A model generated the notes under the pieces. The model made no database searches. It saw only the letters and a program-made list of their open reading frames with translations, and was not told the origin of the DNA. The translations under genes were made by a program, and so were the position numbers. A stretch of DNA of 64,000 nucleotides from Climacium dendroides (Eukaryota > Streptophyta > Bryopsida > Hypnales > Climaciaceae), in assembly GCA_950106755.1 (NCBI GenBank), contig OX467088.1, positions 9,594,001-9,658,000 on the forward strand, in the 5' to 3' direction. Positions 24,332 through 55,552 of the stretch are shown here, piece after piece (within the stretch, counting starts at the first letter, position 1; each line of letters starts with the position of its first letter).

Positions 24332-24826
24332 TAACTCGAGCGTGTTTGGTCAGGTTATTGATCAACTAATAATATTATAGTGCTATCTCCTCCATGGCAG
24401 AATGGTAGCTTGCCTGTGGCAGAGCAGGAGGAGGTCCCAATTTGAATATGAAACAAAAACACTGTAAGTACGGCTGCTTTTTTGTCCGAACTAGTACTAT
24501 TAGTTGGAAATCTTATGTGTTTTCATGTAAGTATGAGAGTACCTCGGTAGTACTGGTGAACTAGATAGCCATGATCCGGCTATCTGGGACGGAGGACTTG
24601 TAGTATCCACCTACTCGAAAGAGAGCTGGTAACAGTAAAGTACTTGATTCGATCTCATTCGTTTAAGGGCAAAGCGAGAAGGAATCTAAATCACTGTACA
24701 GAAATGATTTTCATTTATGGACTTTACCTAATTGACACGAGAAATCTGACTTCATGTCTGAATAGAATTAAGCCTAAGCCTTTATAAAGGACTACGGTGC
24801 CCTATAGAGTAAAAAATCAGGTTGGT

Positions 24827-24860
24827 GAGCCGTGTGATAAGTAACTATCTTGCACGGTTC
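24827..24860 (+). ncRNA. Group II intron domain V (cox3 intron remnant)
   Basis: A 34-nt hairpin begins GAGCCGTGTGATA and ends TTGCACGGTTC, matching the domain V consensus with its terminal GGTTC. It lies about 75 bp before the cox3 exon, the right distance for domain VI and the 3' splice site. The upstream 350 bp are probably more of this intron. Confidence 0.75.
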
Positions 24861-24934
24861 GGAGAGCACTTTATTATGTGAGATGAGTAAACGGCGACTA
24901 AGTTGTACGGCTCTATGAAGTAACTTTTGACTCT

Positions 24935-25228
24935 ACCATTTTTCTAGCTCTAGTCTTCACCGGGTTTCAAGGAATGGAATATGTAGAAGCACCTTTCACG
25001 ATTTCTGATGGTATCTATGGTCCTACCTTTTTCTTAGCCACAGGGTTTTATGGTTTTTATGTTATTATAGGTACTATTTTCCTAATAATATGCGCTATTC
25101 GTCAATATTTAGGGCATTTTACCCAAACGCATCACTTTGGCTTTGAAGCAGTTGCTTGAAACTGGCATTCTGTTGACGTGGTTTGGTTATTCCCATTCGT
25201 AACCATTTATTGGTGGGGAGGTAATTAA
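24935..25228 (+). pseudogene. cox3: Mitochondrial cox3, last exon, broken
   Basis: The frame reads [14 protein letters not shown], then [24 protein letters not shown], and IRQYLGHF, clearly cytochrome c oxidase subunit 3 (complex IV, inner mitochondrial membrane). It ends after YWWGGN with the genuine stop at 25,226-25,228. An in-frame TGA at 25,157-25,159 replaces a conserved Trp codon, and the next residue (Tyr in the family) is Asn. Two conserved His codons (GFHGFH) are Tyr, a C-to-T change that could be U-to-C editing in the parent mitochondrion or nuclear decay. Everything upstream of this exon is absent. Confidence 0.85.
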
Positions 25229-25450: not shown

Positions 25451-26997
25451 CAAAAGTTATCAATAACTTCATTATTATTCTAAGAAGAACCTTGGGGTCT
25501 AGAAGGGGCATTATGATGTCAATCCAGAGGGCATAAAAGGCATCCCGACCTTGCCGCTGAAAAAAGAATATGTTTGCTATGCCCTATCCCGTAATATGCA
25601 ACCTGCCTTTTTTTCCAATAGCAATCGAATGGAGAAAACCCTAGCTGCTTAAAAGCGACCATTAGATTTGCATGAGAAAAGTGAAGAAGGTGGTTGACCA
25701 ACGTAGCGCTATGGAGAAGCCTTGTGCTGATGGTATACCAGTACCATTTTTGTGGGAACTGAATAATAAATAGAGCTCTTCGGTCTTCTTCGTTCATTAT
25801 GTGGGGGGGTGCGGCTTATGTGAGAACCCGCACGCCCCCCTCCCCCTCCCCTTTGTCCGTTTGGCCCTGATCGCTTTGTTCGTAAAACATGGCATTATGT
25901 AAAGATTATGTAAAGTTTACATACATATTCAAATAGATGGGCTAGATGCACGAAACAATAAAACTACTTCATGAATTCTAGGAAATGCTGCTATGTATTT
26001 TAGAAAGATGCGTAGCACTTGGTTGGTTTTGCAAACAAAGAAAAAAAATAAATATCTATTTTTTTCTTTGTTTCACTAATCAGTAGAAAAATAGGCTATG
26101 CTCTGCGGCCTAGTTGATTTGACAAGGTTGTTGGCTAAAAAGCGGGTTCGAGAAATGAATGCATTCTTCTTGCCCAAGTGTTTTGTCAATGCCCAAGGGC
26201 AAAGCTCTCTTATTAGGATGAGGACCGAAGGCGCCAATGCTTTTAGGCAAAGCAAAAAACCATATATAGAGAAGTAGGTCGATCCCGTTATACCGCGCGC
26301 CGTGCAAGGTGCTTTCGTTGCTATAGGGCATATCCTGGTGCCCAATTTCCAGTCCGCGTCAATGAAGTCAATCGCCTAGAGGTAGCGTTGTTGCAATGCG
26401 CGTGGAAAAGCATCTGGGAAACCAAGTCATGACCCATAAAAGGACGACTTGGAAGATACTGTTGGGATTGATGAGGCTAACAAATCCGAATGATGTAGCT
26501 GCTGAACGATAGCATTCACTAAGCCAGCGGGGAACAACTTGGTCTTGGAATCGATTCTTTTGGTAGGTATAACGGGGGCTGGACATGGAAAACAAGGACA
26601 AAGTAGGGGCATTCTCAGTAAGGGAATAAGACTATGCGGACATCTTACCTCGACAAACAGGTAGAAAAACTTGAAAACGCAATTACGGGATCGACCTACT
26701 TTCTAACGAGAGGGTCGGCGGAGCCGCTATAGTAAGTCAATAGGGAAATCGACCGAGCCAGGTATTGAAGGGTGGCAGTTATGATCCGAGGGTAGAGGTT
26801 CACTTCAGTGGCAGCGGTATAGCTGGCATGTGGCCGCGAATGCGGGACAGGCGGCGACGCTTCAACTCTTTTGAGAAGACGGGTTGGTCCCAATAGACAT
26901 AAGAATGTTGCTATGATCTCATTCAAGAAGTACCTCGTAAAGCACGTCAATCTAGATCTAGATTGTTGTTGATGTGCTTAAAAAAATCAGTGGCGGA

Positions 26998-27031
26998 GAG
27001 CTTTATGACGGGAAACTATCACGTAAGGTTC
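26998..27031 (+). ncRNA. Group II intron domain V (nad1 intron remnant)
   Basis: A second 34-nt domain V-like hairpin, starting GAGCTTTATGACGGG and ending ACGTAAGGTTC, sits 29 bp before the nad1 exon fragment. It therefore represents the 3' end of a group II intron in nad1. Confidence 0.7.
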
Positions 27032-27060
27032 GGAGGGCGGGGAAATCTCCGACCCCTACT

Positions 27061-29837: not shown

Positions 29838-29847
29838 GGTAATGACA

Positions 29848-29914
29848 GGGGAATGCTAGTATGCGAGCGTAGAACACAGAGCATAGATATAGAGCATGGA
29901 GCATGGATTTAGAA
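29848..29914 (+). repeat. MULE left terminal inverted repeat
   Basis: Starts GGGGAATGCTAGTATGCG right after the target duplication GGTAATGACA and contains AGAGCATGGAGCATGG. It pairs with 46,872-46,939 in inverted orientation with scattered mismatches. Confidence 0.85.
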
Positions 29915-29934
29915 GTTTTGATATAAAATATGAT

Positions 29935-30140
29935 GAAGTAGTTGAAAAGTGGATGAAAGAGTAGACAAAAAAGTGGATGAGGGTTTAGGGTGGATGAAAA
30001 AGTGGATGAGGGTTTAGGGTGGATGAAAAAGTGGATGAAAAAGTGGGAGAAAAAGATGATGAACAATGTCAAAAGTTGGATGAAAATTTGGAAAGTGGAT
30101 GAAAAAATAGATGAAAAAGTAGATGAAAAATGGATTATGC
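29935..30140 (+). repeat. Subterminal minisatellite, GATGAAAAAGTG-type units
   Basis: Short units of the form GTGGATGAAAAAGT repeat irregularly. A unit containing GAGGGTTTAGGGTGGATG occurs twice in tandem (about 29,975-30,030). Subterminal arrays are common in Mutator elements; this one is not mirrored at the right end. Confidence 0.6.
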
Positions 30141-31822
30141 TGGTACTAGTGTGTATAGTGGGTTACGGTTTAGGGTGAGATTCTACATTTAAAGCGTAGG
30201 AAAAAATTAGAAGAACTTGAATAAAAGTTGGATAAAAGCTAGTGAAAATGGATGAAGGATGAGTTGAAAATTGTTAAATATTTAGGCTAAAATAAGATGG
30301 AGTTGATAGAAGAAATAGATGAAGGGAAGGATGGGAAAAGGTGATGAAAAGAATGGATGGAAGAAGTAGAAGGGAACAAAGGATGAAAAAAATGGATGAT
30401 ACAAGTACAAGAAAGAGCTATTAGAAAAATATATTAGATGAAATGGAGTATAAAAAATGTATTGTAGAGAAATAATCTCATTCAACCTCAAATGATGCAA
30501 GAGAGATTGAAGGTTCAGTTTTTGTGGGAATATCTTCTCCTATGACTAGAAGTGCAATGGGTCCGACCACCGTGGCATTAGGAATTAGGTTAAACATTTC
30601 AGATTGGATCAGGTATGCTGAAGAGTTCTGTAGTATGCAATTCAATACTATGGCACCTAACAATTGTGGAAATCCCCGCAGAAAACAGAATTCAAGTTAA
30701 TATTGAAACTTTATTCTTCTGTCAATTTCAACATTGTGGTAATCTTAATTAATTAGCCATTAAGTTAGTAGCATAAAAACATGCCATTTTGTTCAGTTTG
30801 CAAACGAATGTAAATGTCATATCAAGCGATACATGGATTGGGAATTTCTAGCAACATAAACCCGTAGTAATTATTAATCAAACATGAAAATTGTGGAGTA
30901 AAACTTTAGTTTAGACACAAGTGAAAACGGAGATTCAGTAATCGTAGCAGTACACATGGTCTCCCAAGATACAGCAAGTGACTTGCCCAAACATGAAGAA
31001 AAGCATACTGCGTGTAAGTGGATTCCAACTTCACTTGTAAGAAGCTGTAGGAAGAGAAAACAAAAAAGGCACGGAATTGTAAGTTTTATAACCATGTGTT
31101 GAAAACACCAAGAACCCTACATGATCAGTTCAAATATACTATGCAGAAATCGAACTGCCCTCACTGTCTAATGCTTGTGAATTTGACTGTACTGCAAATT
31201 CATCTATAAAGTTAAGAGCACGGGGGTCAACTAGGTGGGCCCTAGCACGTGGTCTAAGATTCAGGGCAACCAATTCGTGAGCCACTGTATCAACATACAC
31301 AGGGAGAGTAATGGCTTCGGTGGACTAGGAAAAACTGAGGATGAGAAAAGAAAGGGACATTAGCTGCAGTTGTCACGCTGTAGGCTTGCCTAAAAAATCA
31401 AGTTATCCACATGTAAGTCGGATGGTTAGAAACTGACGTATTTCATCATGCGAAGAGGAAAACAGTCACATGATGACTTATTTACGGAATCTAATAGTCT
31501 TCACAGTAGCTTGAACGGGGACTTCGTCTTCATCCATATCGACTAGTACATTAGCCGGTTCAGGTGGCTTAGGGTTGGGACCGACGACCGTGTGCATAAT
31601 TGGAGCAATAAGTGCATCAAAAATAGCCTTATCCTCCTCGAATGCAAGAATATGTCGCAGTGTGGTACGGCAAGCTTGGATGGTTGCACCTAAAAACATG
31701 AAATAAGTATAAGGGTGAGGACAAAGGGAAAACAACCGAGTGATCTAATTGATGATCATGACAGTGACAAGTTAATGCCAAAGTACCTGTAGCGGTTGTG
31801 CAGTTGACCACAACGTCTCCTG

Positions 31823-33999
31823 GTGTGAGCGCTTATTTACCCACCCTTGGTAAATCAGTAAACACAACTAGGTTCTTTTAGTTAGTTCTATCCTATGGGT
31901 GTTCTAACGTCGGTCCATTGTGCCTTCCAAGCAATGGATCTTTCTAAGTGTCCTAAATGTCCTACACTTGCAAAACAATTCTTGTTCAAATCCAAACTTT
32001 AGTTCCTAAAAAACTAATAAAAAGGGAAACATTTGAGATTAGTGATAAAGTAAAAGCTTCGCCGTCTTTTAAGAAATCATCAAAGTTCTATCACAATCCT
32101 AGGACTTGAAGTCAAAGCTCCACCGTCTTTTAGGAAATCATCAAATTTCTATAACAATCCTAGGACTTGAAGTCAAAGCTCCGCCATATTTTCAAAAAAA
32201 CCACAAAAAATATTTAAAACAAGTACATGTTAGTCTAATCATGGTTACAATGTATGTTAGTACAAGTGTTAGTATGACTTTCGAACACGCGAGTTAGTAC
32301 GATGGTGTTGGTTCACAAAATATTTTAAATACTAGAGGCTCTCCTAAGTGGCATCGCCAATCGCAAGGGAAGAACCTCTAGGATTAGTACAAAAACTCCA
32401 AGCTCCAAACTAGTACACAACTAGACTTTGAGAGTTTTGTTCCAACCAAAACTTCTCCAAATGACACAAAGAAGAAATACAAACTATGGTCCAAACTAGT
32501 ACACAACTAGACTTTGAGAGTTTGTTCCAACCAAAACTTCTCCAAATGACACAAAGAAGAAACACAAACTATGGCCCAAACTAGTACACAACTAGACTTT
32601 GAGAGTTTTGTTCCAACCAAAACTTCTCCAAATGACACAAAGAAAAAAAACACAAACTATGGGCCAAAGGGCCAAAACTTAGAAGATCATGACACTACAA
32701 GAGAGAGGAGTGAGTGAGGAGGGGAGGCCTTATATACCTTCTCTAGGTCCCCAAAATCAAAGAAGACTTGGAATGCACTCCAAGCAATCCTATCCCTTTA
32801 GATTTTCATCCTAATTCTAATTTTTTAACTTTCTATGTTGGTCTAAACTTCTAACTTTTGGAGAAATGCTTCAAATCACAAACGGATTGTGCCATTGGCT
32901 TTAGAAGGTCATTTTTAGTCTATAACAACTCCCACCCCTTTTTCCTACATCAAAATCACAAAGATTTCTAGCGCTAACTAGAAGACCAAAATTGGATAAA
33001 AATCCAACTTTTGGAGATCAACTTTTCTAAGAAAAGTAACTAGCTTAGGCTCTTTAGTAGGTGTAAGGGAGTAAGGAAAGATCCCGCTTCGACCTTAATC
33101 CGATTCTGTATGCTCCGTCAACTCCACGATTAATCTTTAAATTTGCCAATTTTGGAGGATCTTGATGGTTTTGCATCTTCTGACTATCGGAATGCCACAA
33201 AACTTATTGGATCTTGTTATTAACATAAAATAAGCTACCCTAATTTTTAATGAGATTTTACCGCTGCCTGGGTAATTTCTAGGAATTTCCCATCATTACT
33301 TCCAACGGTTGACTACCTGGAAAAAGATCTTTTGAAGATTAGAAAAAACCAAGAATTTTCATGGAACCTCTCATGGAGTTCTACAAGGGATGTGCAAACT
33401 CATATTCCCGTTTTGCACATCTAAGGAAGGAGAATCAAATCCTGCTATCTCCTTTAATTTCCGGTAAAAAGATAATCTTCCAAATAGAAGGGAATCTTGG
33501 CGAGCTGATTGCTCCGATGGACTCCTGGCATGATTTCCACTTCAAACTACCGTACTTAAGTTGTAAATGCCCTCCTATGATTCGTCTTGAGTTTTCTTCA
33601 CCTACAGGCTAACAATTGGAGTTTCTACTATTTTGCCAATGGAATGGGAAAACTGAAACCTCTCTTTGGGAATCTATACTAAGGTTTTTACATAGTTCCC
33701 TTGGACCAATTTGGTTAGGATCTATCACTGAAAGGTAGGTTTAGACAAGTTGGGCAATTTCTACTAAACATGGTTATTTTGTACAATTTCTGGATTTCTA
33801 CCCTATCTACATGCAGGATTTGGTTATAAATAACAAAAAATGCCTCAATTAGGACTAATGATCATATTGGTATGTGACATCTCCGTTTTGGTTATTCACT
33901 CTTTTTTGGACTTTTTGTATATAAAACTACACTCAAAACTTTATAAAATAAAAATAAAAAACAATTCCGAATCATAAGTGACCAAATGGGCACTCACAC
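31823..33999. mobile_element. 2.2-kb non-autonomous element nested in the methyltransferase gene
   Basis: The left end GTGTGAGCGC and right end GCACTCACAC form terminal inverted repeats, flanked by CTG (31,820-31,822) and CTA (34,000-34,002). Removing the insert and one flanking triplet joins the minus-strand codons for IK to PGDVVVN, giving KPGD. That is exactly the loop expected before AdoMet motif I in beta-class methyltransferases, so the boundary is confirmed by the host gene. 3-bp duplications suggest a CACTA-like or Harbinger-like class, but the end sequence is not typical of either. No transposase inside; one 83-codon ORF at 33,361-33,612 is unrecognised. Confidence 0.8.
32050..32665. 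repeat. Tandem repeats inside the nested element
   Basis: Two arrays. A unit of about 60 bp containing GAAATCATCAAA and CAATCCTAGGACTTGAAGTC is repeated 2-3 times at 32,050-32,190. A unit of about 85 bp starting CTAGTACACAACTAGACTTT is repeated three times at 32,410-32,665. Internal arrays of this type are often seen in non-autonomous CACTA-like elements. Confidence 0.75.
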
Positions 34000-36900
34000 C
34001 TAGTTTGATGCATGCTTCCACAAGCATCTACATGAATTCCCGAGATTTCTCTTGAGGTCCCCACCATGGTATATCTCTATTCATGGTGACGTCATTTTTG
34101 TTGCAGAAATTCTGCAGAATGTCATCCTTAGCCACATTAATATCCACAATATCGTGGGATTCCACGTATTGGAAGGGGTAGTCATCCTCGGACTTCGGTC
34201 CGTTCTCTTTTACAACGAGAGATATGGAGAACCGCCTAATCTGCAACAACTAAAAACTGAGAATTAAACACTATTGTAGGAAATCATTCAAGCACACATG
34301 GAAGACGTAGGGAAATACATTACCATCTTAATGTTGTCTGCTGGAGACGTTAGGTGAAGGCGGTTCATGCCGAACCATGTCCGAAGTATCTTGAATTTGT
34401 ATCCTTGGCAGCAACCAAGAAGTTGGCTTCTGTGGGCACGAGAGAGGGTTGGATATATTACTAGAAGACCTCCATAGTCATGGAGGTATGCTTCGGCAAA
34501 GTCAAAGATTGGCACTAACCAATCATCTGCAATCACGTTCCACTTTGGTATAGGTGCACGAGGAGTCAAGAGTGTTGGAATATGAAGGCCTTCAGGAACA
34601 TCCACGATGACCAAGTCCACTGCAGCCTCACGCTTCAAGACTCCATTGAAGAAGCGTTGTTTATCACTCGAATGTTGTAGGAAAACATGAGGGATAATTA
34701 CAAACACAATATAGGCACATAGAACTTTAGAAGGGAATTGATGAAATTGTAGTAGTATGTGAATGATAAAAAAGAAGAAAAATATATGAATGTAGGTCTT
34801 GCTTGAAATGTACCATTGAAAGGAACGCATTCACGTCATCAAATGTTTTTTTCTGACTTGGTAAAGCGGACAGCGATAGGTTCAATATGCACTCGTCTAC
34901 ATCATGTGCAGGGTAGTGAGAGGATGGAGTGAGCCCGTGGACCAAGCACTCTTGAGTAAGCAAAAAGCTTGATGACCCTTCTTTCACCTCAGCTGCACTT
35001 GTAGCTAGTTTGGGGTTTGGGGTTTCGGCCTTCCTCTTGGTACCCTTCTTTTTCCTCTTCTCTTGGGCCTTCTCAGATTGGGTTGCCTGTCGCTTCTTCC
35101 TGATGTCGTCGGACTTCCTCTGTGCTTCTTCAAGCTTCTCTAGCTTTTTTCTATCAGAGACTTCCCGCCTTTGGATGCATCTTGCTCGCATCTCTAGATC
35201 AAGATGAGCAAACTCATCAAACTCAGCATCAACAATAGCGGCATCCTTCAAGGTCTGGAATAGAGCCTCCTCCTCTAGTGGAGTAGTTCCAAATATGCAT
35301 TCTATATACCAAGGACATGCTTGCAGATGTGGACTTGTCCACTTCGTCAATTGCATGGGAGAATATGCAGTCTGGAGAAGACCGATCTAACCAAGTAGTC
35401 AAAAACGGTGGTAAATCTACCTTCGCAATTGCCTTCTTGTTGTACAGCTCAAACTTGAAATACCTATGTCCAATGCAGGATTAGTCAGCTACCTTTATAA
35501 GAATAAGTGATAGTACAATAAACAAGGCACAAGGACAATGCATTGGACCCTCCAAATATGATTACAACATGATTGTCCCAATGAATCGCAATGCCACAAG
35601 AACTCCTAGACAAGGACAAACACCTGTAAATCACACGCTTGACAACCAGCGCCAACCCTCTGAATTCCTTGAAGCTATCTGACTTCTTGAAGAGGTCAAC
35701 ACCCTTGAAAACACTGGTGAAAGCAATATCCCAAAGCTTCATCCTCCAACTCTCAATGTACTCAAGCAGTGTCATTGGTTTGCTTGGAATGCTCATATTG
35801 ATTGGAATATTGTCAGCCCGAATGATTGAGTCAAACATGTTGTTGGTTGACTCCTCGATCTGAAGAAATAAATGTAAACACATTGAGGCCATGTTGGGCA
35901 ACCGAAAATGTGAAATTGTCAGGCTATAAATACAATAATGAAATCATGAGATATAATCATTACCCCAGCATACCAGCACGCCCTAGCAAGAACTTGAGTC
36001 AACTTCTCCTCATTCACAGGATGAGGTGAAAATTGGCAAGCCTCACGTGAGGGACTAGAAGCATTCATCCACTTGAGCCACCTAACTTTTAAGTCCAAAG
36101 AGACGTTTGCTGTTGCAATCAATTGTAACTTCTCTAGAGTCAACTCAGGAACAACAAAAAGGCTCCAATGTCGCTCTATTTGCATGAAGAAAATGAAAAG
36201 GCATCGTCACTGAAGATGAGACAAGCCGATGAAGAGCAAAACCAATGGTTCTGTGAAAATACCTCTTTCAACCAGTCAGGTCCCAATGCCGGATTTGCAA
36301 CGGCTACAATCTTCGAGAGCTTCTTGTATAGCTTCTCCGTGGAATCCTTAATCGATGCCCTCATAGCGTAGGCAACTCCCTCTCTTGTAACGTCATCTTC
36401 AGGAGTGTCCTCATGATACTTTCGGACTGCCGCATCAATAGTTGTGGCTATCTCTTGCTAAACAAACATAGAGGACTCTACAAATGTTATGAATCGAACG
36501 CATGATACCCTAAGCTTGAGTGCCTCATGAAATTTGAATATGAGTTCTTGTTACTGATCACATTCATATCTTAAAAATAAATGATGTGAAGACATCCAAG
36601 GGCATAGAATACCATGACTTTCGTGTATTCTATTGACATTTTGCCTTCTCCTCAGGACTCAGCATTTCATGAAATTTCTCAAGCTCAAGTACCCCATACT
36701 TCTGGACGCGGTAGAGTGTATGAACCAGGTTGGTCTTGACATGCAAGTTCTCGGTATGCCTGCAGTAAATAATAATTTAAGATTAACCTGAGGAGTAACT
36801 CCAGAAAATAGAGCATTGTCCAAGAACAGTATTTTGATAGGTGACTGCAAACGATAACAATGAGGTTGGTGTAAACTCACTTGTTAATATCATGCATTGC

Positions 36901-38199
36901 TTGCATTGCAACTCCAGTCCGATGCCTTGTGTCTAGGACTATTGAGTCCACACAAATGTGTCAATCGCGATCTGATCTATGGAGGTGCTCAATGTGATTC
37001 ATCCAGGCGATTTGTCTGTGATTTCCATCGCAGACAAAAAACTTGTAGTCCACCAAATGCTTCAGGACAGTCTGCTCAAGCTTCTCGTTGAATTCATCAT
37101 TCATTGCATTCCATATAGGTCCCCATTCTTTCTTCTCAGCATTGGTAAATACTGCCATCTCACACGCCTCATTCGATACTGAGACATAGAAGACTCTTGC
37201 ACCCTTCTCGTATCCCCGACTAAATTAGTTCTCCAACAACGCCAAATCACACGAGAGTGTAGGCTGTACCATGGGCATTGGAACTAGATGACATAAAGGT
37301 ATCTTTAGTCTTGATTGGTCACTGGATGTCAATCTCAAGCTATGAATTATGGACACAATGTCCATTGTCTGCGATTTTCGAATTTCATCTTCCATGTAGT
37401 GCGGTTGAACCCCAGAAATTGAAATCTCTGAGGCTTCACCGTCGTCATCCTCCCCGTCACCTCTAGGTGCAGAAGCCCTAGCAGTCATAGACAATGCTCT
37501 CGGTGGAGATTTCTGAGGTGCAGGCTCTTGCAAACGATAACAATGGAGTAGCAATTGTCATATGAATTTCACATACAAATACATTGAGAAATATATTGTA
37601 ATGTTAATTTGTAATGGACATCATGATTGTCCATCAGAGTGATTTAGAATGGAGACCAATATTCTGAATATTATAAAAGGAATAATTTATAAAGGTAACA
37701 TCATCAAACACATGTCCACAAACCACACTCTCTAGTGAAAACAATGTATCTCCCAAATCAATGTAGGAGCATATCCTCTTGGGTAGTAAGAATGGACGAC
37801 ACATCATCAGCGAATATAAGTTCATGGTCCCCGGATTCAATAGACGTGCAGTAGAACTCTGAAAGATCCGACAGCCCCAAACTGTGAAGGTCATCTACTT
37901 CCTCATGAAGTTCGCGAATTAGAATTTGAAGATCATATGGTACCCTAGGCTGCTTCTCTCGGAGACGAATCTCGGCATCTATATCTGTCATTTTAATCTC
38001 CATGGCCGAAGGAGCAGGATCTTGAACATTCTAAACTTCAACAACACTCTCATGACTTTCAACCTGGAGATGAAAACAATTAGAAAACTTATATAAGAAG
38101 GATAATCAATAATCACATCAAATCGATTAAGAAACTAGGATGCCAAAACTTTCGGACACGGGAGCCAAGACAGCATATGAGAGCAATGAAGGCGACAAC

Positions 38200-39060
38200 C
38201 CGCATGATTCAGTGATCAGGTCCCTAATCGGGTCAAAAATTGTCCGCGACTAAATATTCATGCATGGCCCCCAACCTTCCGGTGTCGACTCAGTCCCGAG
38301 ACAGGGTTTTTGGGTTCGGTGCTATGTACAGACCCCTAATGCTTGGGGGTTCAGAAAAGGAGCGTTCGAACTCGGAAGGCCAACTTGAACAGGCTGCGAG
38401 CCCCTAACCCGGAGTCAAAATGTGAGAGGATTGGAGGCGGGCGGTTTAGTGAATCACTGTTCTCGTCCCCAATAGGGTCAAGAATTGTTCGCAACTAGAT
38501 ATTCATGCATGGCCCCCAACCTTTCGGTGCCGTCTCAGTCTCGAGACAAGGTTTTGGGGTTCGGTGCTATGCATAGACCCCTAATGCCTGGGGGTTTAGA
38601 AAAGGAGCGTTCGAACTCGGAAGGCCAACCTGAACAGGCTGCGAACCCCTAACCCGGAGTCAAAATGTGAGAGGATTGGAGGCGGGCGGTTTAGTGAATC
38701 ACTATTCTCATCCCTGATAGGATCAAGAATTGTCCGCGACTAGATATTCATGCATGGCCCCCAACCTTTCGGTGCCGTCTCGGTCCCGAGAGAGGGATCC
38801 GGGGTTGGAAGCCATGTACAATTTTCTGAAATTTCCTATTCACGCCTAAACTACGGTAGGGGCAATCCCAAGTGTGTGAAAAAATAGTCAGCGCAAACGA
38901 GAAATAGATGCTGGAGGACGCAAGATTCAATACATGCACCAGAATGATTATTTTTCCGATAATCATGCATGGCTCCCAACCCTCAGGTGCTGTCTCGGTC
39001 CCGAGAGAGGGGTTTCACATCGGGAGGCCTGCATGATTTTATCCAGGTTCCTATTCATGC
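38200..39060. repeat. 245-bp tandem repeat between the two divergent MULE genes
   Basis: The word ATTCATGCATGGCCCCCAAC recurs at a spacing of exactly 245 bp (TGCATGG at 38,261, 38,506 and 38,751), with a diverged partial unit at 38,966. Units contain GTCTCGGTCCCGAGA-like palindromic stretches and GAATCACTGTTCTC. The array lies directly upstream of the methyltransferase-like gene, in the region that should hold promoters of both divergent genes. Confidence 0.8.
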
Positions 39061-40788
39061 CCTAAACGTCAACTCCCGGGATTCAGATTGTAGTAAAATG
39101 CGACATGCAAGTATGTTGAGCTTCAGCATACATGGGCTGCGACGGCGGAGACTTCTTGCGCAAGTGGCTGCATGGTATTCTCTCCAGCTTGATTTCTTCG
39201 CGGACGTAGTACTCGATTCATCACTGAAGACCTTGGAGCAACACAGAATTGCTTCCACATGTCAGAAATCCAAGAGTAACTCATAACACTAAATAATGGA
39301 ATGCCTTAGTTAAGTAGACAGCAAGTGTTAGAGGACCTACCAAATTGTCCTTTGCACACGGCGAGGCCGAGATCACGACCACGGCAGAAGGTGTGTGGAC
39401 AGGGCAAGGTGACGACCCGAGGATGCAATGGCAACGGAGTTGCGCGGCAGCCAAGGTATGTCATGTACTACTGTTCTTTCATTCAAGGTTAGGGTTTGCT
39501 AGGGAAGTACGGTCGTAACTATGTTGGAAAATACGTTTGGGATCTATGGCTGGGAACTACGGTTGGGAACTACGGTTTAACTACGGTTGCATCAAAGGAT
39601 ATTATCCCAGTTCTTTAGCAATAAATATTCTTACCTCAAGTAGCTCTCTTTTCTCTTCGCATTGCATTATATGGATTAGCAATTTCCAATTTGTATGAAA
39701 AAAAGTATACCTTGGTGCCCTTCAATCCATACTATTTACGTTTTGATTGCAATGAACCCGGATGCTCTTGATGGATATTATGAAATCCTAATTTATAATG
39801 TCCATAAATTGTGGTTCTCTTCTTGAATAGGATCGAAGAGTTTTCGTTGGCTAAGGGTTACCATTATACTTTGAGCTTCTCAAAAGTCAGCAATGAAAAT
39901 CCTTTAGTAGAAATATCAGTTGATACCTATGAGCAATATGATTTTTTTAGGTATTTATTTGTAGACATTAGAGTTCCTCTTGACTGAGGTTACCTCAGTC
40001 ACCTTAAATATTCTAGAGTACTTGTTCTGTGGCCAAGTTTTTCTTCAAAGTAGTGAGGGTAGTATATAATTGAATATTTGATGCATTCAGTGTAGGTAGT
40101 AGGTACCATTGTTTGATTACAACACATATTATGGTTATTTGCTCAGGGTCCTAGGAGGGGTACAATCTTGGGATCAAAGTGAAGTAACCTTGTATATTTC
40201 CAATATAAGATTTATCTGCATATCTTCAAAATCCTCCATATCTGCGATATCATATATAATATCCCTTAATAGTACTTGATGGATGACTTATTATTATGGT
40301 CAGTGTATTCGTTTATCTATAACGGGTATATTTTTCTTGAAAATGCAAATGATTATGATGAATTTTCTTGAGATTCAATTTCACTATACTAAGTGGACTG
40401 TGCTTCCTTACTACAGAAGCCTCTCATATATATCACTGTACTTAGGGAATACTTACACAGACCTGCTTGACATGTATTAACGGTATACCCAATACATTTA
40501 ATGCCCTATTTAATCATTGTTCTTCTGACATTTTTTAGTTTGTGAGCCGCCATTTTCATACTATATTGTACATGTTGAGTTACTACTAGTATTCACTATT
40601 CACATGTTGTATTTATTGTATCAAGATATAGATGTATTACTTTCATTCTATTACAGATTTTGAATCTGTTATTCAGAGCATTTCAATACTTCGGCGCTAA
40701 TGTTTTGTATGAAATATAGTCTCCGGTTATAGTGTCATTTCACCCTTGGATTGTACAACCTGAAGAGGTGCAGGAATGATGCATTGCT
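39061..40788. other. Non-coding spacer between divergent MULE genes
   Basis: AT-rich after 39,600. Short direct repeats of GGAACTACGGTT and TAACTACGGTT occur at 39,545-39,585. No gene seen; the ORFs at 38,969-39,286 and 40,283-40,480 lack recognisable features. Confidence 0.5.
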
Positions 40789-43700
40789 TTGAATGATAGC
40801 ATGACAGGATCTTCAATGGCAATTGTGAGGGCACATGGAGAATGTGTTCCGATTTCATTTCCTGTGGGCGAGTTGGAATATGCTGTTGTCAGTTCGTCTC
40901 ATTTGAGTGCCCGTTTCCTACTTGCAGAGAACTCATTAGATATTGACGAAGAAGTATTTGATAGTATAAGTGGTGAACTGACGCATACTATAGGTCAAGA
41001 GCCCTCTGTGTGTGGCCTTGTTAGGCAATGGCATTTGCATGAAGGTAGGTATTTAACATATGGATTACCGTAGTCGTGTATAGGAGCATCCAATGCAGAG
41101 GGATCCGCTAGAGTTTCTAGGACTAGTACTTTCGAGAATACTGTGAAAATTGAGCCTGGTGTGGAGGTGATTACCATTGGCAATGATGACTCTGATGGTT
41201 CATCTCTACCCTACAAACTTTTGAAACCGACATCGTCGCCTGCAGTTGGTAGGGCGTACTCATCCTTCTCGCCTTCTCCAGATATAGTTATACTATCATC
41301 ATCTATTCATCTTCCCGTGCGTCCTCAATTGTTTCATGTTTGCAAAAGTTGTGCCACACGAAGGGTTCTAGGAACCCGTTCAAGAGGGTCAATTGGAACT
41401 CAATTAGAATTTGTAGTGTCCAATTTGTTCCACCTTCGTTCAATGGTGATGTGATATTTGAGTTACCACCCGTTAGAGATGTTTCGGGAACTCACAATCA
41501 GGCTAAGCTTCTCATTTGGACAAATCTTCATACGACAAATATAAGGAATGCAGACGGCCTGACATTTTGGTTGGCGTCTTGCGTGGGCCACCTACGATGT
41601 GACAACCCGAGTTGTGACTATCTAACTCGAAAGCACCGTGTAGCTCTCATCAACGAGACTGAATGGGATGGTTGTTCTCCTGTTTCATTTGAGGTTCGTG
41701 ATATTCCTCCACTTGGTTCCAGTATCACATGCAAGATTTGTTTGACTGCTCCATCGTGTATTGGTAGTTGTCCTGCGAAAATCTATTATGTATAGTAGTT
41801 GGGTCACAGGACATGACTCGAGCTTGTATTCATTTCGGTATTCACAACCACCCTGTAAGAGATGGAGACTGCCGGGAGTACAAGGAGAGAACTCGGTCCT
41901 TGATATGAGACCAAGTTGAGCGGAACCCGTCTGGAACAAATTCCGCTATCGTCATGAAGGCTAGCAAGGAGTTCCTTCGAGAGATGCTACTTCGACCCGA
42001 AGAAGCTACACCTACCCTATTTGGTCTCCAGGAATTGATGCCAGTTCTGGAGAAATGCAAATTTATGAGTTCCCCAAGTATTCGCAATGAAGTCAATACG
42101 TTCAAGTACTTCCGGCGCTTTGGAGTGATGGACAGCATCACAAAGCTTCGTGGCTGTAGCAATTGGGCTTTTGTGCAGAAGAACAAATTCCCTAATCAGG
42201 GATCCGACTCTAACAAAGTATTTGTGTTCAAAATGTCCGAGGTTGGCCCTAGAAGTGGCGTGGACTTGGTATCCCGTATGCAACCTGGTGGTGACCTTGA
42301 GGACGCATGGATCATGTTTGATCATGTTAGGCGAGTGAAGCTCTAGACTACAATTGTGTGTCATGTTTATGACACGACCTATTGCCATGTCATGACTATT
42401 GCAATTAGTGATATGCAGTCAGAAGATGTAGTTGCCCAATGCAACTTCTGGAAAAACTTAAACGTCGTGATGGGTAGACATAGATATACCTTGCCCTATT
42501 TTAAGGGCTTCATGGCTGATTCGGCACAAGCAAACTGGAATGCAGTGCGCATAGTTTATAGAAGTGGTGACCCAACCGAGCCCATGCCCAATCGAGAACA
42601 TACATGTTTATTTCATTGGACTCAGTCAATGGAGAAATACACGAAGGCAGACATTTGCAGTGACCTTCAAGACCAGCATCGGAAGCTATGCAAACAATAT
42701 AAAGGATGCAAATTCCTTAGCAGAGGCAGAGACTAGGTTTCATGCAATTCGAACGTGGTGGCATTCATCCGGAGCCACAACCGGGGAGGGGCTTCGCTAT
42801 CTGGAGTTGTGGTTAGCGTTTTGGCACTTCCGATATAGGCAATGGGGAGCATTCATGGACACTATAAGATTCTTGATCACCGTATCCCTCGTTTGTTTGT
42901 TTTTTCAAGATAGGGTTCATGTTCCTGTCTTATCTTCTATCATTGCTAATCATTTATTTTTTTTATGCTTTCTATCTTCAGTTTCTCGAGTACTTCATAT
43001 AACAACCCTAATCGTAGACATTAAATCCAGGAAATATTGGTCCTCTTCATTTGTAGTAGCTTTAATCCATGCTCCCCGGAATAGGGACTCACTGAAGATG
43101 AACTTGGACTCATTCCTACTTGCAACCTCGCAGAGACCGTCCATAACAAATGGTTGCAACAATCTGGAAAACATGACTCTGATTTGTACGTCGCCACCGT
43201 AGATGACTATGTTCGAGCGTTCATGCAAATGGTTAGATATTACCAGTTTCTAAAAGGTGAGAAGCCGGGAACTGATCCAGGAATAGAAGAACTATTGCTT
43301 CGTGTAGCACAGAGATATGCCCAACGTACCGGTAATCCGAAAGGATTGAACGATGCCATGGCATCTGTACCAGGAGTCAATGAGTACTGCACTAGGAAGC
43401 CCCATTTGGAAGGCGAGGAAGTTTTCGGATCTAAGAAGCGAATGCCCAATCTTCCACATGGTTCTCAATATGACTTGCATTGTCCCGACAAAGTGAATTT
43501 CTCCCGACCCCGGATTGGAACGAGGGCCACCCCTGCACCCACACCGGTCATTTCCTTGGATCAGATTTCTGCAGAACCATGGCCTGTGACGCATGAAGAT
43601 TATCCGGATTTGTTGAGGTCACCTAAGACAAGGTCAATTCCTGCAATTGAGGTGGCCTCCCAAGTGAGGACCGTCCAAGAAACAGTTTGTAATGAGTCTC

Positions 43701-44551
43701 AATGGCATATTGCCTACTTGCCTAAGACGTCTTCAAAAGCATGTTTTGCATTGCAGGCCATTACGCGAAAAAAATGTGTTGCAAAAATAGTGCAAGGCAA
43801 TAGGGGAACAGCTGCACCTACATACACCGGCAGCATGGACAACTACAAGAAAAATAGGATTGAGAGAATGCAATTTTTTTTCTGCAATGATGATATATCG
43901 TGGTGCGTCAAAGGTTCTTGACGAAAATGGGTTCTATCAAAACCGGAAGTACCAGACATTTGGCTGGTGAAAGTTGGAATCAATCTTACACCCAAAGAGA
44001 TCCTAGATCTTCAAAATGCAGGGTTCCGTCTTCCGCAGCGTCTTGAAATTTCCCCTCGTAGGCTATTTGGAAATCATGATTTGCCCCCTGATGTTTTGGG
44101 ACTTCAAGTTCCAGAGTCACCCGCAGAGCACCCCATCACACGGTCAGGAAAGAAGATTCGGAGGAATCCAAAAGCACCTACAACAAAGCAAGCAAACAAT
44201 TGCGCCTCCGCACTCACAATGCAAGCAGTGGTTCGTGAAGTTACTATGGTACCACATCCGGGCTTCGGATGCATCATTGCACTGGACTCAGGTACACCGC
44301 CTGCCATTGAACATTACATGATCACTATAAGTGCATTTCTTGAATGCACTTGCTTTTATTTCAAGGAGATGTCAAGAAAGGCTCTAGGAAAAAGAGGGCA
44401 ATGGGCTAATTGCAAGCACTTGTACTTTTTGTTCATTGGAGTTTGCCAATTGGATGCAGAAGTAGATCTTTTTATTCATGCTCCAAGCTTTAGCTTTAAT
44501 GAAGTGAAACGCATACTTCAGAGTGGTATCTTAAAGCTGAAATCCAATTAG
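40789..44551 (+). pseudogene. MULE transposase (zinc-ligand region, DDE core, SWIM finger), degraded
   Basis: Successive plus-strand frames make up one transposase. 40,789-41,450 is an N-terminal region rich in Ser and acidic residues. 41,340-41,870 has cysteine/histidine ligands (GHLRCDNPSCDY, TCKICL, then HNHPVRDGDC), resembling WRKY-GCM1/FLYWCH-type binding domains of MULEs. 42,350-42,880 is the DDE core, with VYDTTYCHVMTIAISDMQSE and FKGFMADSAQANWNAVR supplying the first two acids, then LELWLAFWHFRYRQWG. 44,330-44,420 is a SWIM finger (ECTCFYF ... CKHLYF). It cuts and moves the 17-kb element in which it lies. In-frame stops at about 41,071, 41,793, 42,344 and 43,919 and frameshifts near 41,400 and 42,710 disable it; an intron is likely at about 42,890-43,080. 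Transcribed away from the methyltransferase gene. Confidence 0.8.
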
Positions 44552-46871
44552 TACACAGTTATCCTTCAATACGGTTGACGCTAGCATATTGCAGTGTACC
44601 TTTGGATGGTGTGCTCCAAACTTGTTTCACGTAAGAATTGTAGTGAGAGTAAAAGAGACACTACTGAATTTCAATTGTCAATCGTCCATTGCACCTTGCA
44701 CTATCATGCGTGATTGCCCATCCCACACTCTCTAGTATGATTTGTATATATCTCTGGATATAAAATATTCATAGAGGGTTGTTTAGATTGGTATTGATAA
44801 TTGCGACAAAATAAAAATGGCCTTCCCTCGTCCCAATCCACTGAAAATGACCTTGACTGAATTCACTTTTTACAATGAATATGGTAGGACAACGGCAGAG
44901 GTACTTAGAGGTGGTCACCTTATGCATTCAGAAGTTTGCAACATTTATCTGAACTTGCTATGGTTGTAAACCCATTTTTTATTAGCACTATCTCATGCTA
45001 GCATTGGTAGCCGTTACCTAAACCCTTGCAATACAGATGAGTAGCAATTATTGATCAATATAGTACTTGCAAACATAATTGAAATTCATTGTTATTGATA
45101 GGAAGTTTTTCAACATGCTAATGCCTTTTATATGATAAATTGGTAAAGTGGTTGCACATGGATGAACTTAATTAATCATTTTAACCCTATCACATGGAAA
45201 TGTTAGCCTAATCCCAAGCATTCTAACTACAGTTGTTCAATAGTTTAAGTTAAATTGTTCACCTAACCATACATTTTTCAATACAATAAACAGATGTGCA
45301 TCCAACAATAAAAAGTTTATATGAACCCTGAACCCAATGCTCTAAATCCTAAATATAGTCCTCTATAAAAAGTTAACAGATGTGCAATAAACAAGACACA
45401 AAGGCAATAATAAATACCGTAAACATTGAACCCTCACCCTAGAAGTATGCCTGTCCTTCACCTTTGAAGGGTCATTTCACGGTTTGAGGTCCCCAATTAT
45501 ATTGAGATAAAAAAAACACAGTTATAGGGGTACCCCTAAACCCTAAAACCGTGGTGAAAGGTTATGTTATGTGTCTTGATACCACGGTTATAGGTTCACA
45601 CCCAAATAATTTTTTTGCTATAGACTTAGGGTCTCCTGTCTTGGATCCACGGTGATAGGTCCATTTTCACAGTTATGGGGGCATGAATATAAAGTTATCA
45701 TGTTTTACTTTGTAAAACTTCAAAGCAACCCTAGTCTAAACATCTACAAGACATACTTCATTCAGAAGTTCATTCAATTTGGGATACATAACCATGAACA
45801 CCTTTTTTCTTACATGTTCAATGGATTTTTGCATGAAATGTAGACAAAGTCATCTATTTAGTTGATTTTGAAATATTCCCAATCAATTGCCCGCCATAAC
45901 ATTTATAACTTTGAGGCGTCTATCTTCTTGGGCCACTTTGGCAAAAAGCCCTAAATCCTAACTATCCACTGAAACCTTCCTATTCCTCCATCTCCTCTCC
46001 CCCCTTCCGTCTAGGCAATTGAAAGGCCAATCCTTAAAGAAAACAAACTCCTTTCTCCCTCCCATGCCGTTGATCTAGATACGGGTAGGGATACTTTACA
46101 GGACCAGATACGATATAATATAGACACGGTCCGAATGCGAGATACAAGATATAGTTCAAATACGATACAAATCCAATATGGTACGAAGATGAGATACGGA
46201 ATATAGTTCAAATGCAATATAAATACGATATGGTATATATACAAAATACAAGGTATGAGGTACGGATATGGATATATCCCGTATGAAATGTTACCCCTAG
46301 CCCCACTTGAAAATTACAGAAGGGCAGGAGGGGAGGAAAAAGGCTAAATTTAATATAATAAAAGTTTGAGCTTATTAGTGGGAGGTAAGAAAATTCAATT
46401 TCATTTTTTTTGTGGGAGTGGATAGTGAGACAGTCTCACTATCCACTCGAAAGACAAGCCACTAAGCTTTGGCACATGAACCAATAAATTGATATAGCAT
46501 TAAAACACCAATCCCCTACACAAATTGGTTAGTCATAATCCCACCGTAGGAGGTGTCCAATGTCATTGTTGAAGTTACGCACCAACAATAATAAAACCAT
46601 TCTTCTAAGTTCAATCAATATAACCCTTCCCTCCATGTGGTCAATGGTCCTAAAATATTTCTACACATATTCAGATTGTAGTCCACCCTAAACTTTTGAG
46701 GTTAGACTTTTTAAATCCCCAAATTTTGAGACTGGACTTTTTATTACCTTAAAGTATGCTGATTTATGGAACTAAAGCCCAAAATTTTTAGTTGACTTTT
46801 GAAGCTAAACACCCAAATTCAACAAAATAAATAAATACATAAATTTCTACCGCACCAAATTACAGAAAAAG
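44552..46871. other. MULE right-hand non-coding arm
   Basis: No gene seen. It holds a telomere-like CCCTAAACCCTAAAACC (about 45,535), a degenerate array of ATACGATAT/ATACAAATA-type words at 46,080-46,290, and a perfect 15-bp hairpin GAGTGGATAGTGAGA-CAG-loop at 46,416-46,448. Confidence 0.6.
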
Positions 46872-46939
46872 GCCCTAAATCAATGCTCCATGCTCCAATT
46901 CCATGCTCTACGCTCTATGCTCGTATACTAGCTTCGTTG
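46872..46939 (-). repeat. MULE right terminal inverted repeat
   Basis: On the plus strand it contains TGCTCCATGCTCC and ends CTCGTATACTAGCTTCG before the target duplication GGTAATGACA. It is the inverted partner of 29,848-29,914. Confidence 0.85.
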
Positions 46940-46949
46940 GGTAATGACA

Positions 46950-48264
46950 ACTCCCTTTGATTCCTTAAGTGTTTATTACTCAATTGACTACTTAATTGTT
47001 TATTACTTCTTTGACTCATTAACAAATTTGTTTTATTGATAAACTACTTTCCATATGGCTCTATCACTAATCCATGGATTTCAGTCATATCATTTTGTGA
47101 GATTGAGGGATTATCAATTAAATATTCCAAGGTGATTGTAAGCCTTTAAGTTGGCACTTGGAACTTAGGTTTTTTGGGGGGAGGGGGGTTGTCTAGTTTT
47201 GAATATATTTATGTGAAAAAATGCATAAAAAGAGAATTTGAGTGAGATTTGGTAGAAGTCCCTACTAATGCAGTGAGGGGTCTTTTTAAAAATGTAGAAT
47301 GCTTAAAACACCTTGTTTTTTCATTTCTAGAATCTAATTAAAAGTTTGCAAAGTTGATTAATCAATTCCAAGAGAATTTAGAGTCAAAAAGTTAGCTAGT
47401 CCTAGTGTCTTGTCCCATGCTAAAACTAGCCCTAAAAAGTATATGAAGCAAATTCGCTAAATGAAAACAATCCATTTTAGGTTTAGAGAGTCTAGGAAAA
47501 ATTACCATCCAATTCATGAAGAATTTGGATTAGTCAATTCTTATCTACCAGTAACTTTTGAAATATTGAGCTAGAATGCAAATGAGGCGAAGGGAGAAGT
47601 GACACGAGCACATAGAGAGGTGCTTTTAGCTTAAGAGCATGCCAGGAGTTAACATCAGAGCTAGTTGTTTCAAGATTCCTTGTTACTAGAATGATTTTTT
47701 CTCTGGGTGGAAATTATAAAGGAGTATTTAATTTTAGACTCCTTATGAATAGTGCAAAGAAAGAATTGAACTTGCACTTTGATTTTGGAAACTTCCTTAA
47801 AGTTATTCAAATTTTTTTTGAAATACCTTGATGACTTTGTAGGAAGTCATTCAACTACCTTTAAACATATTTGTAAATTCATAAAAATTACCCATATTGC
47901 GGTAAAATTCCACTAAAAATTAAAATAGATTTATTTGTGCTAATAAAGGACCCCACCAAGTTTGGAGGCATATTGACATTGGCAAATTATAGAACTGGCA
48001 ACAACAACATTGAATTCCAAGAAAATTTACAAGTAGGCGGTGGATTGACCAGCATACCAAGGGCTTACAATATCCAAATGTTGTAAATATCAATACTTTT
48101 CTTACTCATGTGAACCTTCTAGATAGCCCTTTTTAATTAGTTTCTTTTTAAAATGCAAATTTCAATAGTTGGAATTTTTGATTTAAAAAAAAATTATTGT
48201 TAGTGGTTTTTATGAACCGGAATGGCCTGGAAGTAGAGAGTGGGAAATTTTGTGGCTAATTAGG
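46950..48264. other. AT-rich intergenic sequence
   Basis: No gene or repeat boundary recognised between the MULE and the hAT MITE. Short ORFs only. Confidence 0.5.
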
Positions 48265-52021: not shown

Positions 52022-55000
52022 CACTAATAATGTTAATTAGTGTTTAATGAAGATTAGTGTAGTCTACAATGTTTACCCTTGAACACCAATTTCCAACCAC
52101 TTTCCATTTAGTGTTGGCAGTATTGTAGGACTTGAAATCAATGCACCGCCTTCCGCTTCCACCACCTCTCCTCTCCGCCTTGCTCTCTTCGCTCCGCCTG
52201 TCTCTCTCCGCTCTGCTTGGCTCAACCCCGTAAGGACATTGCGAGTGTACACAGAGTTGCATTTCCAAGTATTACGCTTTTTGAATTAATTGGTTTTTGA
52301 TAAATTGTGATGATTTTTGGTTCTGTAGTTTTATTTCACTACAAGATCTAGATGTTCGTGTTCATTCTAGGTGCACATACCTTAGCCTCAATTGATTGGT
52401 GTACCTAGTTTGTTAAATTACCCGAGGTTATGGATGTTTTTTGTGTCATTCTGATAGGTTTGTGGCTTCTTTTTGCAAATTAACTAAGTGGTTACACTAC
52501 AATTACACTGCAAATTCTTACTCAAGCTAATCTTTAGATGGCAACCCACGTGGCTTTTGTTCTTCCAGTGGATCTCAATGATCCTAGTAGATGGCCGGAA
52601 AGACAACAGTCTAATACCTCAGTAGATCCACACCCTACTGTCTTCAACGCAGACCTCCACTGTGCCCATGTTGTGGACATCCCAGTTGGTAGACTCATAG
52701 AGGACAACTACAATGAGAATCTTTACATTGGTAGCGGAGCAAATCCCCCACATCGCCCTACTGCTCTAGCGAACCATTTTGTCAATGTCGACCCCCTTCA
52801 TGTAGGTGCACCGTCTTCAGTACATGCCTTGAATTTAATTGCAATATTTTGTAGTGTTGATTTCATAAATTCTGCTTGCTTAGAATTCCATTTACATAAT
52901 GAAATTATGAAATCAATTCATTCACTACGAATACTTGCATGATCAATGTGATTAAGCTTATTTCCAAGTTCAAATTCATATTGCAATGAACTCATGAATT
53001 CATAAACCTTTAATGGTATACACATCGTACAAGTGAATGTAGCTTAGGCAACCAATCTTTTATTGCACAATCTTCATTATGTGGATTGAAATTAAACAAA
53101 ATGCTGAAGCATCAAGAATTTTTCTATCCATACAATTTTGAAAATTTGACTAAATTCTCAAATCCAATGAATTATTGCGATCACTTGCTTTATATGTTAG
53201 CATCCAAACTTCAAGATCTTGCTTGTTTTTTATTTTTATTTTAAATTACAAATGTATTTCTGAATATAAATTTAGAAGTTAGTTTTACATTCTCAATTTT
53301 ATTTTAAGTTTAAATTCTAGAGTATCATATTCTTAATTCTTAATTCAAATTCATGAGTTCATTGCAATAATTTTACAATAATTTCAAATTGAAAATTAAG
53401 GATTAAGAATTTATAGTAACTTCAAATTTAAATTTAAAAAGCATCACAATAATTTCAATTTCAAATCTAAATTTATTCATTTAATTTTCAATTTTGAATT
53501 GTCAATCAAATTTTTAGTTCTCTAAATTTTTTTGAATTCCATTTTAAACCGTCAATTTCATTCTAAATTTAATACTTAGTTCACTTCTCAATTCAATTTT
53601 GAATTAATGTAATATGGTTTTCAATTTAAAAGATGCTTAAGAGAAAATATTTGTTGAATAATATATTGAGGAAGAATTGTTTTAAATATGATTTGTTTTC
53701 TACATGTTGTTTTGTAGGTCGTCCACCTCTTCATGTTCTTCTTGTCAACACCTCTTCACGATGCTTGCAACAAGTTTCCACTCTTCTCAACCGAAAAATA
53801 GTCATTGCATGGATGGTAGAAGATGAAGCAATTCACAGACTTGTTGGTTTCAATGGACACATTATTCAAGCTTTTCCTGAGCACTTTCGAGGTCAGAAAG
53901 CTACCAATTATATAAGAGCTATACGATGGTGGCAACAATGAGGCAACTACATTGAAGTTGATGAAGAATTATAATTAACGTGCAACCACAATCAAGTTGG
54001 CAAACAGAAGAGACTCCACTTCAAAGCCAAGACAGGACATGGCAAGAAGCGCTCTGATTGGGTCCAATGGTTGTATCCAAGGGTCCTGGAGGCTTTCGAA
54101 GGACTTCGAAAATCTGGTGTGAAATTTTCTTCCAAAATTTTGTTAGAGTTGGCTCTAGAGGTGTTACTGGGTCCAGAGTCAATTTATACCGCTGAATCCA
54201 TTGATCCTATAGACTAGAAATTGCTCACCAGCAAATTGTGTCATAGTTGGATTCAATAGTTTATGGGAGTACATAACATTGTATTCGTATCACAACGCAG
54301 CAGGCTCTCTTGTAGTCTTGAGAAGGAACTTCAAATTGAAATGCAAACTGCATTTTATTTAGGAGTCTTGTAGAGAGGGTTCCAATCCAATGTTTTGGAT
54401 GAGAATTTAATGGAAAATATAGATGAGACACACTTTGTTGTCAATGTTGACAATGGCCGGACATTGGGTTTTCGGAGAGATACCACGGTGAAATATACTA
54501 AGTTAGTTTCAGGTGGAAAGTCTATGACCATGGTGGTCAGAGTCTCTGGAGGTCGTAGATCAACTATTGAAGCTCCTATGTTGATTTTTACAAATTAAAA
54601 TAGAAGCTATCCTATTTGGAGATTGGAGGATAACATCCCTGGAGTTTTATATAGGAATGGTTCAAAAGGTTGGATGGATCAATCTATTTTCCCTGAGTAT
54701 TTTAAGGAAGCTCGTGCTTTTCAACCTGACCTTCACCAATGGTTGAAAATTGTATGAGTAGATAATTCTACTACACATAAGATAACTCTAGTGTTGAGAG
54801 ATGTTCTAGCAACTAAGAATACCACTTTGAGGTATTTGCCTCCATGCTCCACCCACTTATGCCAACCTGCAGATACCTTTATTATTTCAAAGATAAAGGA
54901 TGCTTGGACTACTCGTTGGGAAGCCAAAAAGACCGAATTGATTCAATCAAATGCATGGCAAAATATCCCTCGTGAAGACAATCAGTGGTCTAGCAAATTG

Positions 55001-55552
55001 ACAAATCCAGGTAAGAGATTTTTTTTGCAATTGGTAGCGGATAGTGTAGAAGATGTGAATAGGCAAGTTGATTTTGGCAATATGTCTTATGCCAGGAAGG
55101 CCATGATCCGTTGTGGCATGGCCTTAGATGTTGATGGTTCATGGAATGTGAACCAATTGTTTCCTCATCTACAACAAATTGACAAATCCAAGGTCAAGAA
55201 GTGCCTAATTTTATTAGAACACCCTAGAAATATTTTCTAGTGCTTTGCACTATATGCAATGGACACATGTTTGTAATAAAATGGTTGGCTTTTTGAAAAT
55301 GTCTTCTTCATTGTTTCATGATTTTTGTGCCAAAGTCTATAAAATATGGTTCGTTTTTTTGAAATTGGAAAAGAGTGGTACTCTCAATAAACACTAAATG
55401 TCAACTTTGTAAAATTTGGAAGGTGTAAAACATCATGGGTGATGGCAATTAGAGTTAAGTTGAAATTTAGTGTGTACACATTATTGATTCAATTGACATT
55501 TAGTGTTCAAGTTCGTAATTAGTGTTACAAACACTAATTAACATTATTAGTG
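52022..55552 (+). mobile_element. 3.5-kb pogo/mariner-like DNA transposon present only in copy B
   Basis: The left end begins CACTAATAATGTTAATTAG, and the right end is its exact reverse complement over 24 bp. TA flanks each side (52,020-52,021 and 55,553-55,554), and copy A lacks the element at 2,797. A TA duplication is diagnostic for Tc1/mariner-pogo elements, and a broken DDE_1-type transposase gene is inside. Subterminal words such as CACTAAATGTC and TTTAGTGTT echo the MITE-like segment at 18.9-19.4 kb. Confidence 0.9.
52538..55240 (+). pseudogene. Pogo-like DDE transposase, degraded
   Basis: The coding parts are an N-terminal exon from ATG 52,538 (MATHVAFVLPVDLNDPSRW), a probable intron to about 53,718 ending TTTTGTAG, then GRPPLHVLLVNTSS. 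The catalytic region follows: NIDETHFVVNVDNG (about 54,415-54,460) for the first aspartate, VDNSTTHK (54,757-54,785) for the second, LPPCSTHLCQPADTF (54,833-54,880) for the third. This is the DDD pattern of DDE_1 proteins (pogo/Tigger/Jerky family). In-frame stops at about 53,939, 54,216, 54,371, 54,596 and 54,756 inactivate it. The element probably moved when another copy supplied the enzyme or before the stops arose. Confidence 0.8.

Follow-up and report, generated by a model that had tools for sequence, protein, structure and literature searches.

The window analysed here is a stretch of 64,000 nucleotides from the moss Climacium dendroides, located on contig C37 of a genome of 412.6 Mb (123 contigs), which was searched for further copies of the features found. 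The window contains a large transposon with two main genes (Table 1). A multi-exon cargo gene, traced on the minus strand from ~38003 to ~31478, encodes a ParB-like domain and a DNA methylase-like domain, and it is divergent from a transposase gene on the plus strand (~40801-44548), as the sequence-only reading of this DNA had proposed. Both genes sit inside a single element whose copies share their ends and are flanked by 10-bp target-site duplications; they occur together in most listed copies, and they do so in two lineages. This architecture is almost certainly that of a lineage of large DNA transposons of the Mutator-like element (MULE) type with a resident ParB-DNA methylase accessory gene.

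Table 1. Features of the transposon in the window (SAM, S-adenosylmethionine; nt, nucleotides)
Feature	Position	Strand	Basis
Complete transposon as present in the window, 17,092 bp	29848..46939	.	Shared ends of independent copies
Left target-site duplication GGTAATGACA	29838..29847	.	Sequence
Right target-site duplication GGTAATGACA	46940..46949	.	Sequence
Left terminal inverted repeat	29855..29912	+	58 nt, 83% complementary to right arm
Right terminal inverted repeat	46875..46932	-	Partner of left arm, 58 nt
Transposase gene, broken in window copy; DDE-like segment 42347-42736, SWIM-like CxC...CxH 44345-44419	40801..44548	+	Motifs by eye
Spacer repeats, 245-bp unit, between both genes	38205..39061	.	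Self-comparison
Palindrome TCTCGGNNCCGAGA, four sites: 2 mismatches each at 38288 and 38533, exact at 38778 and 38993	38288..39006	.	Candidate ParB-domain sites
Cargo first exon found (MEIKMTDID...)	37761..38003	-	Conserved in 6/7 other copies searched
Cargo ParB-like exon, DGNHR at 37015-37029	36881..37524	-	46 relatives; fold of relative P0010
Cargo middle exons, ~36759-36629, 36457-36262, 36175-35966, 35859-35625, 35463-35420, 35371-34820 (splice sites placed by eye)	34820..36759	-	
Cargo methylase exon, motif-IV-like VDVPEG	34321..34665	-	Sequence, relatives
Cargo next methylase exon (IRRFSISLVV...REFM*MLVEACIK), interrupted by nested insertion	33999..34240	-	
Nested insertion, 2171 bp, in methylase coding region; imperfect ~9-bp repeat at borders	31828..33998	.	
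Cargo SAM-motif-I part: PGDVVVNCTTATG (31827-31787), intron, ATIQACR... (31689-31478)	31478..31827	-	PF01555, PHROG on other copies

Element ends and genomic copies

Target-site duplications of MULEs are 8-11 bp long (PMC6446971). The sequence-only reading had placed a perfect 10-bp duplication and inverted repeats of about 65 bp at the ends of the element. The duplication is present as described; the inverted repeats are imperfect and 58 nt long, with a poor match at the outermost bases. In independent genomic copies, homology ends at the two element boundaries. Six other genomic copies were aligned against the window element, and both ends were readable in four of them; their start and end points are those of the window element, and each is flanked by a different perfect 10-bp duplication (CTAGAGTTCC, ATATTAAAGG, CATTCCTTGG, and GTGTTGAAAT). 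A fifth aligned copy, 134 kb away at C37:9.76 Mb, is a segmental duplicate, because its flanks and target duplication are the window's own. The duplication is 10 bp in five insertions and one sister element, which is inside the MULE range. A short motif, GAGCGTAGAG, and its variants occur only near the termini and never in the interior in all five copies counted, and this is a possible transposase site.

On contig C38 (16.09-16.79 Mb), eight near-identical copies stand in strictly alternating orientation, spaced 76-117 kb apart. This arrangement reflects either palindromic amplification or an assembly artefact.

The window copy itself is dead, because both genes contain stops, the transposase has frame breaks, and the methylase coding region contains the nested insertion. 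In-frame stops in the ParB exon are TAA at 37225-37227 and TGA at 36961-36963, and a TAG follows REFM ahead of motif I. The 2171-bp insertion sits between MLVEACIK and PGDVVV and is missing from five of the six aligned copies; the only one that shares it is the segmental duplicate. Reading this 2.2-kb stretch as an intron was rejected, as other copies reveal it to be an insertion. Part of it (33192-33288) matches DNA beyond the element (47875-47971) over 97 nt in inverted orientation at 72%, and the insertion therefore belongs to another repeat family.

Domains, linkage, and selection of the cargo gene

Both domains lie in one gene inside a transposon. The cargo protein is predicted, from a modeled structure, to have a domain of the ParB/sulfiredoxin superfamily with the ParB-N fold; this identity rests on the exon of relative P0010 and not on the window exon. 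A ParB-like domain had been expected from the DGNHR motif, and the modeled fold agrees with it. By sequence profile, Pfam matches of the 47 ParB-exon members did not include ParB families, and the ParB-like profile phrog_1033 matched 17 of the 47 (best E 0.039). Window exons and composites had no match in Pfam or NCBIfam and nothing relevant in the PDB by sequence. The full-length composite had no protein relative in a collection apparently made up of exon-sized proteins, and single-exon queries did yield relatives.

The proposed N4/N6 methylase-like domain of the beta class is shown by other genomic copies. PF01555 scored 28.9, 29.0, 32.0, and 28.4 bits in four genomic copies (cut-off 26.7) and 25.9 bits, below the cut-off, in a sister copy, but the window composite had no PF01555 match. 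PHROG DNA methyltransferase profiles also matched other copies (down to 1e-7), and phage DNA methylases were among the best tblastn rows (E 6e-5 to 1e-4). All methylase profile matches span the motif-I half only. The later exons read ...VDLVIVDVPEG...FDFAEAYLHDYGGLLVIYP..., followed in other copies by PGDVVVDCTAATG-ATIQACRATLRHILAFEED, so that by exon order motif IV (assigned by eye, and not DPPY) precedes motif I, which is the beta order. Motif I (VVVDCTAATG) is preserved in other copies. A predicted half-domain methylase model had a mean predicted local distance difference test score of 51.6, and scans of viral and prokaryote contigs for family relatives gave 23 and 38 pattern matches, of which none was confirmed.

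Linkage of the two genes was evaluated on the best 40 scored matches per search. The ParB exon had 114 candidates in the genome, and 34 of the 40 scored were at least 89% identical; presence of the cargo in all 34, and in all 40 sister copies listed, follows from the construction of the searches. The sequence-only reading had asked whether MULE copies lack the cargo gene while it sits elsewhere as a separate repeat. The outcome favors the reading, and both domains stand. Among the matches listed, the methylase exon lies 2.5-2.9 kb from the ParB exon in 34 of 34 close copies, a divergent transposase lies within 40 kb of 31 of the 34 (within 12 kb in 26), and of 55 transposases from two lists, 53 have a ParB neighbor no more than 40 kb away. 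At up to 12 kb, 26 of these transposases are paired with cargo of the window type and 22 with cargo of the sister type, and five more have a partner within 40 kb.

The sister lineage was recognized from six ParB matches at 72-73%, and it has at least 40 scored copies that are 97-100% alike. One sister element on C35 was read; it is 21.06 kb long, has the same ends, and is flanked on both sides by GCAATGCAGG. Its transposase half is 86% identical to that of the window element, and its ParB-methylase gene and transposase are on the same strand, whereas they are divergent in the window. Between lineages, silent sites of the cargo gene are saturated (dN ~0.26), and transposase dS is 0.24. The two halves have therefore had different histories, with modules exchanged or the cargo replaced.

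The ratio of nonsynonymous to synonymous change (dN/dS) between subfamilies is 0.216-0.258 for the cargo gene and 0.220-0.266 for the transposase. These values indicate that the cargo gene is under purifying selection, and the methylase part is likewise constrained. Within the youngest groups the ratios are higher (0.41-0.49 for cargo and 0.54-0.62 for transposase), as expected if copies decay once inserted.

The spacer palindrome array and neighboring features

The spacer between the genes contains copies of a 14-bp palindrome, TCTCGGNNCCGAGA. The window element has four sites with up to two mismatches compared to 0.75 expected, and one of 100 shuffles reached four. At the same threshold, eight elements have 4, 4, 9, 8, 11, 6, 4, and 10 sites and none in their flanks; the eight include a duplicate pair, and sites inside the C34 element were counted to the end of its stretch. 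Exact sites number 2, 4, 6, 8, 1, and 5 in six elements, and the reversed control has none. Most sites lie in the spacer upstream of the cargo gene, near its 5' end, in both lineages. When palindromes were enumerated for an arm length of 6 nt and gaps from 0 to 6, TCTCGGNNCCGAGA alone was present in six of six spacers, and the next best was present in three; sister spacers had no blastn match to the other spacers. In the reading direction of the cargo gene, the palindrome has GA at its center in the window lineage, as it does in sister copies near the gene. The suggestion that the cargo might bind repeats of its own element has thus gained a candidate site array, with binding itself inferred.

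Three other features of the window lie outside the element. An unbroken 687-aa open reading frame for a squalene-hopene cyclase (16315-18378, minus strand; Pfam E 6e-143) lies in a patch of 58.7% GC in surroundings of ~30-46%, which represents either a horizontally transferred gene or foreign DNA that entered the assembly. Matches to group II intron domains, two in number and both exceeding the gathering score (24825-24936 and 26996-27059, plus strand), are possibly organelle DNA in the nucleus. A DDE_1 transposase fragment of the pogo/Tigger type is at 54758-55237 (plus strand).

Possible roles of the cargo protein

By analogy with ParB on parS, the ParB domain would bind the TCTCGGNNCCGAGA array, and we put even chances on such binding to the element's own array. 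The bound domain would deliver the fused methylase, or a methylase-derived SAM-binding domain, to the element, where it could mark or occupy element promoters and keep them expressed against host silencing; the effect may concern silencing or expression timing. Taken whole, with a MULE-type lineage, self-binding cargo, and protection from silencing, this explanation has about an even prospect of being right, and methylation as an effect of the cargo protein is suggested only tentatively.

Several observations weigh against this explanation. The sixth aligned copy (C34) is without a right end and without a transposase within the 30 kb read, and four further copies probed at both ends yielded one end each. 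Among the matches listed, a transposase is absent from 3 of the 34 ParB copies (C41:3052136, C40:24166659, and C77:48046), a ParB partner is absent from 3 of 37 close matches to the methylase exon (C37:15288999, C38:23832097, and C3:11211922), and 2 of the 55 transposases lack a ParB neighbor up to 40 kb away (C37:21509504 and C38:18554873). In the same lists, 18 of 40 sister ParB copies are also without a transposase. The transposase, searched as a spliced relative, had no Pfam match, neither to PF10551 nor to PF04434. Foldseek matches of the P0010 model are weak (none with E <0.001; template modeling score ~0.3), and the ParB part has dN/dS of 0.65-1.3, from few changes, in the closest copy pairs. 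Of 21 relatives, 19 have D[VI]PEG as motif IV, and none of the 21 has a (D/N/S)PP(Y/F/W) motif of the DPPY type; we do not claim an active methylase for this reason, and catalysis may have been lost. In three young copies, 136 of 201 singleton changes are C>T or G>A (CG 40, CHG 40, and CHH 56), as would follow if the host had methylated cytosines in these copies. Five palindrome sites (three near-matches and two exact) lie outside the spacer, upstream of, within, or behind the transposase; in one element, c38, whose spacer includes N, the palindrome center is reversed. The palindrome could serve a different protein.

A self-marking transposon is possible, if rather doubtful: ParB would load at TCTCGGNNCCGAGA and slide or spread as bacterial ParB does, the divergent methylase would write an element-specific mark, and the protein-site pair would have passed between MULE lineages and been kept through inversion. 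We consider it unlikely that the methylase is catalytically dead and that the protein, a DNA binder of ParB-like type fused to a module that binds SAM, autoregulates its gene or opens chromatin, in the manner of the VANC anti-silencing proteins. The replacement of DPPY by DVPEG is conserved rather than decayed, the array lies near the 5' end of the cargo gene, and VANC targets are frequently tandem repeats according to the abstract of PMC5735166; retention of motif I and constraint on the methylase part argue against this alternative. It is improbable that the cargo serves transposition, with methylation state or ParB-type nicking setting when or which copy moves. Cargo constraint is similar to that of the transposase, the sister element has two exact palindromes upstream of its transposase, and nicking is reported for a bacterial ParB-methylase protein in the part of PMC5512222 consulted, but the palindromes gather at the spacer and not at the ends, where the termini bear GAGCGTAGAG.

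Placement of the element in another DDE superfamily with 10-bp duplications has a low probability. The lack of Pfam matches would suit it, among them any MULE or SWIM match for the transposase with a SWIM finger named by the sequence-only reading; the duplication length within the MULE range, and the DDE-like segment with C..H and SWIM-like CxC...CxH seen by eye, point to a MULE. That the cargo is a passenger, a host or foreign gene captured in Pack-MULE fashion without function for the element, is very improbable. MULEs do take up genes (PMC6446971), but the transposase is paired with cargo in 53 of 55 listed matches, cargo dN/dS is ~0.22, and the cargo was kept in two orientations across two lineages.

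Several known systems resemble this element in part. Sola1-1_Ec32, a 21.5-kb giant DNA transposon of Ectocarpus, encodes on the opposite strand a 1104-aa protein that combines ParB-like and N4/N6 DNA methylase domains, and its authors propose that the protein binds and marks its own transposon sequence; green and red algal cases of the same cargo pair, including Petroll 2025, are cited there (PMC12477816, in the passage describing the element). Cargo kind, divergent arrangement, and proposed role are alike, but Sola1-1_Ec32 is of the Sola1 superfamily in a brown alga, the passage has neither binding sites nor a selection test, and the comparison is by description. The nearest functional analogues are the VANC proteins of Arabidopsis VANDAL MULEs, which act on their own family, with targets that are often tandem repeats; they differ in that they are reported to cause methylation loss, and the abstract mentions neither ParB nor methylase (PMC5735166). 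Bacterial and phage fusions likewise join a ParB domain to an adenine methylase, but they are prokaryotic and outside eukaryotic transposons (PMC5512222, in the part consulted). Retrotransposons of dinoflagellates and charophytes have acquired DNA methyltransferases, but these are C5-cytosine enzymes (PMC5890265, in the part consulted).

The sequence-only reading knew of no MULE with a ParB-methylase gene. Our literature search, with subscription literature mostly beyond reach, found none in print, and the main text of a MULE survey mentions neither ParB nor methyltransferase (PMC6446971), but such cargo is in print for other transposon superfamilies. Where the literature reached describes such cargo, it gives no binding site, no test for selection, and no test of linkage across the family. 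Here the cargo has been retained by two lineages that share a genome, and the 14-bp palindrome array offers a concrete candidate binding site. This candidate site makes the self-marking proposal for such proteins directly testable.

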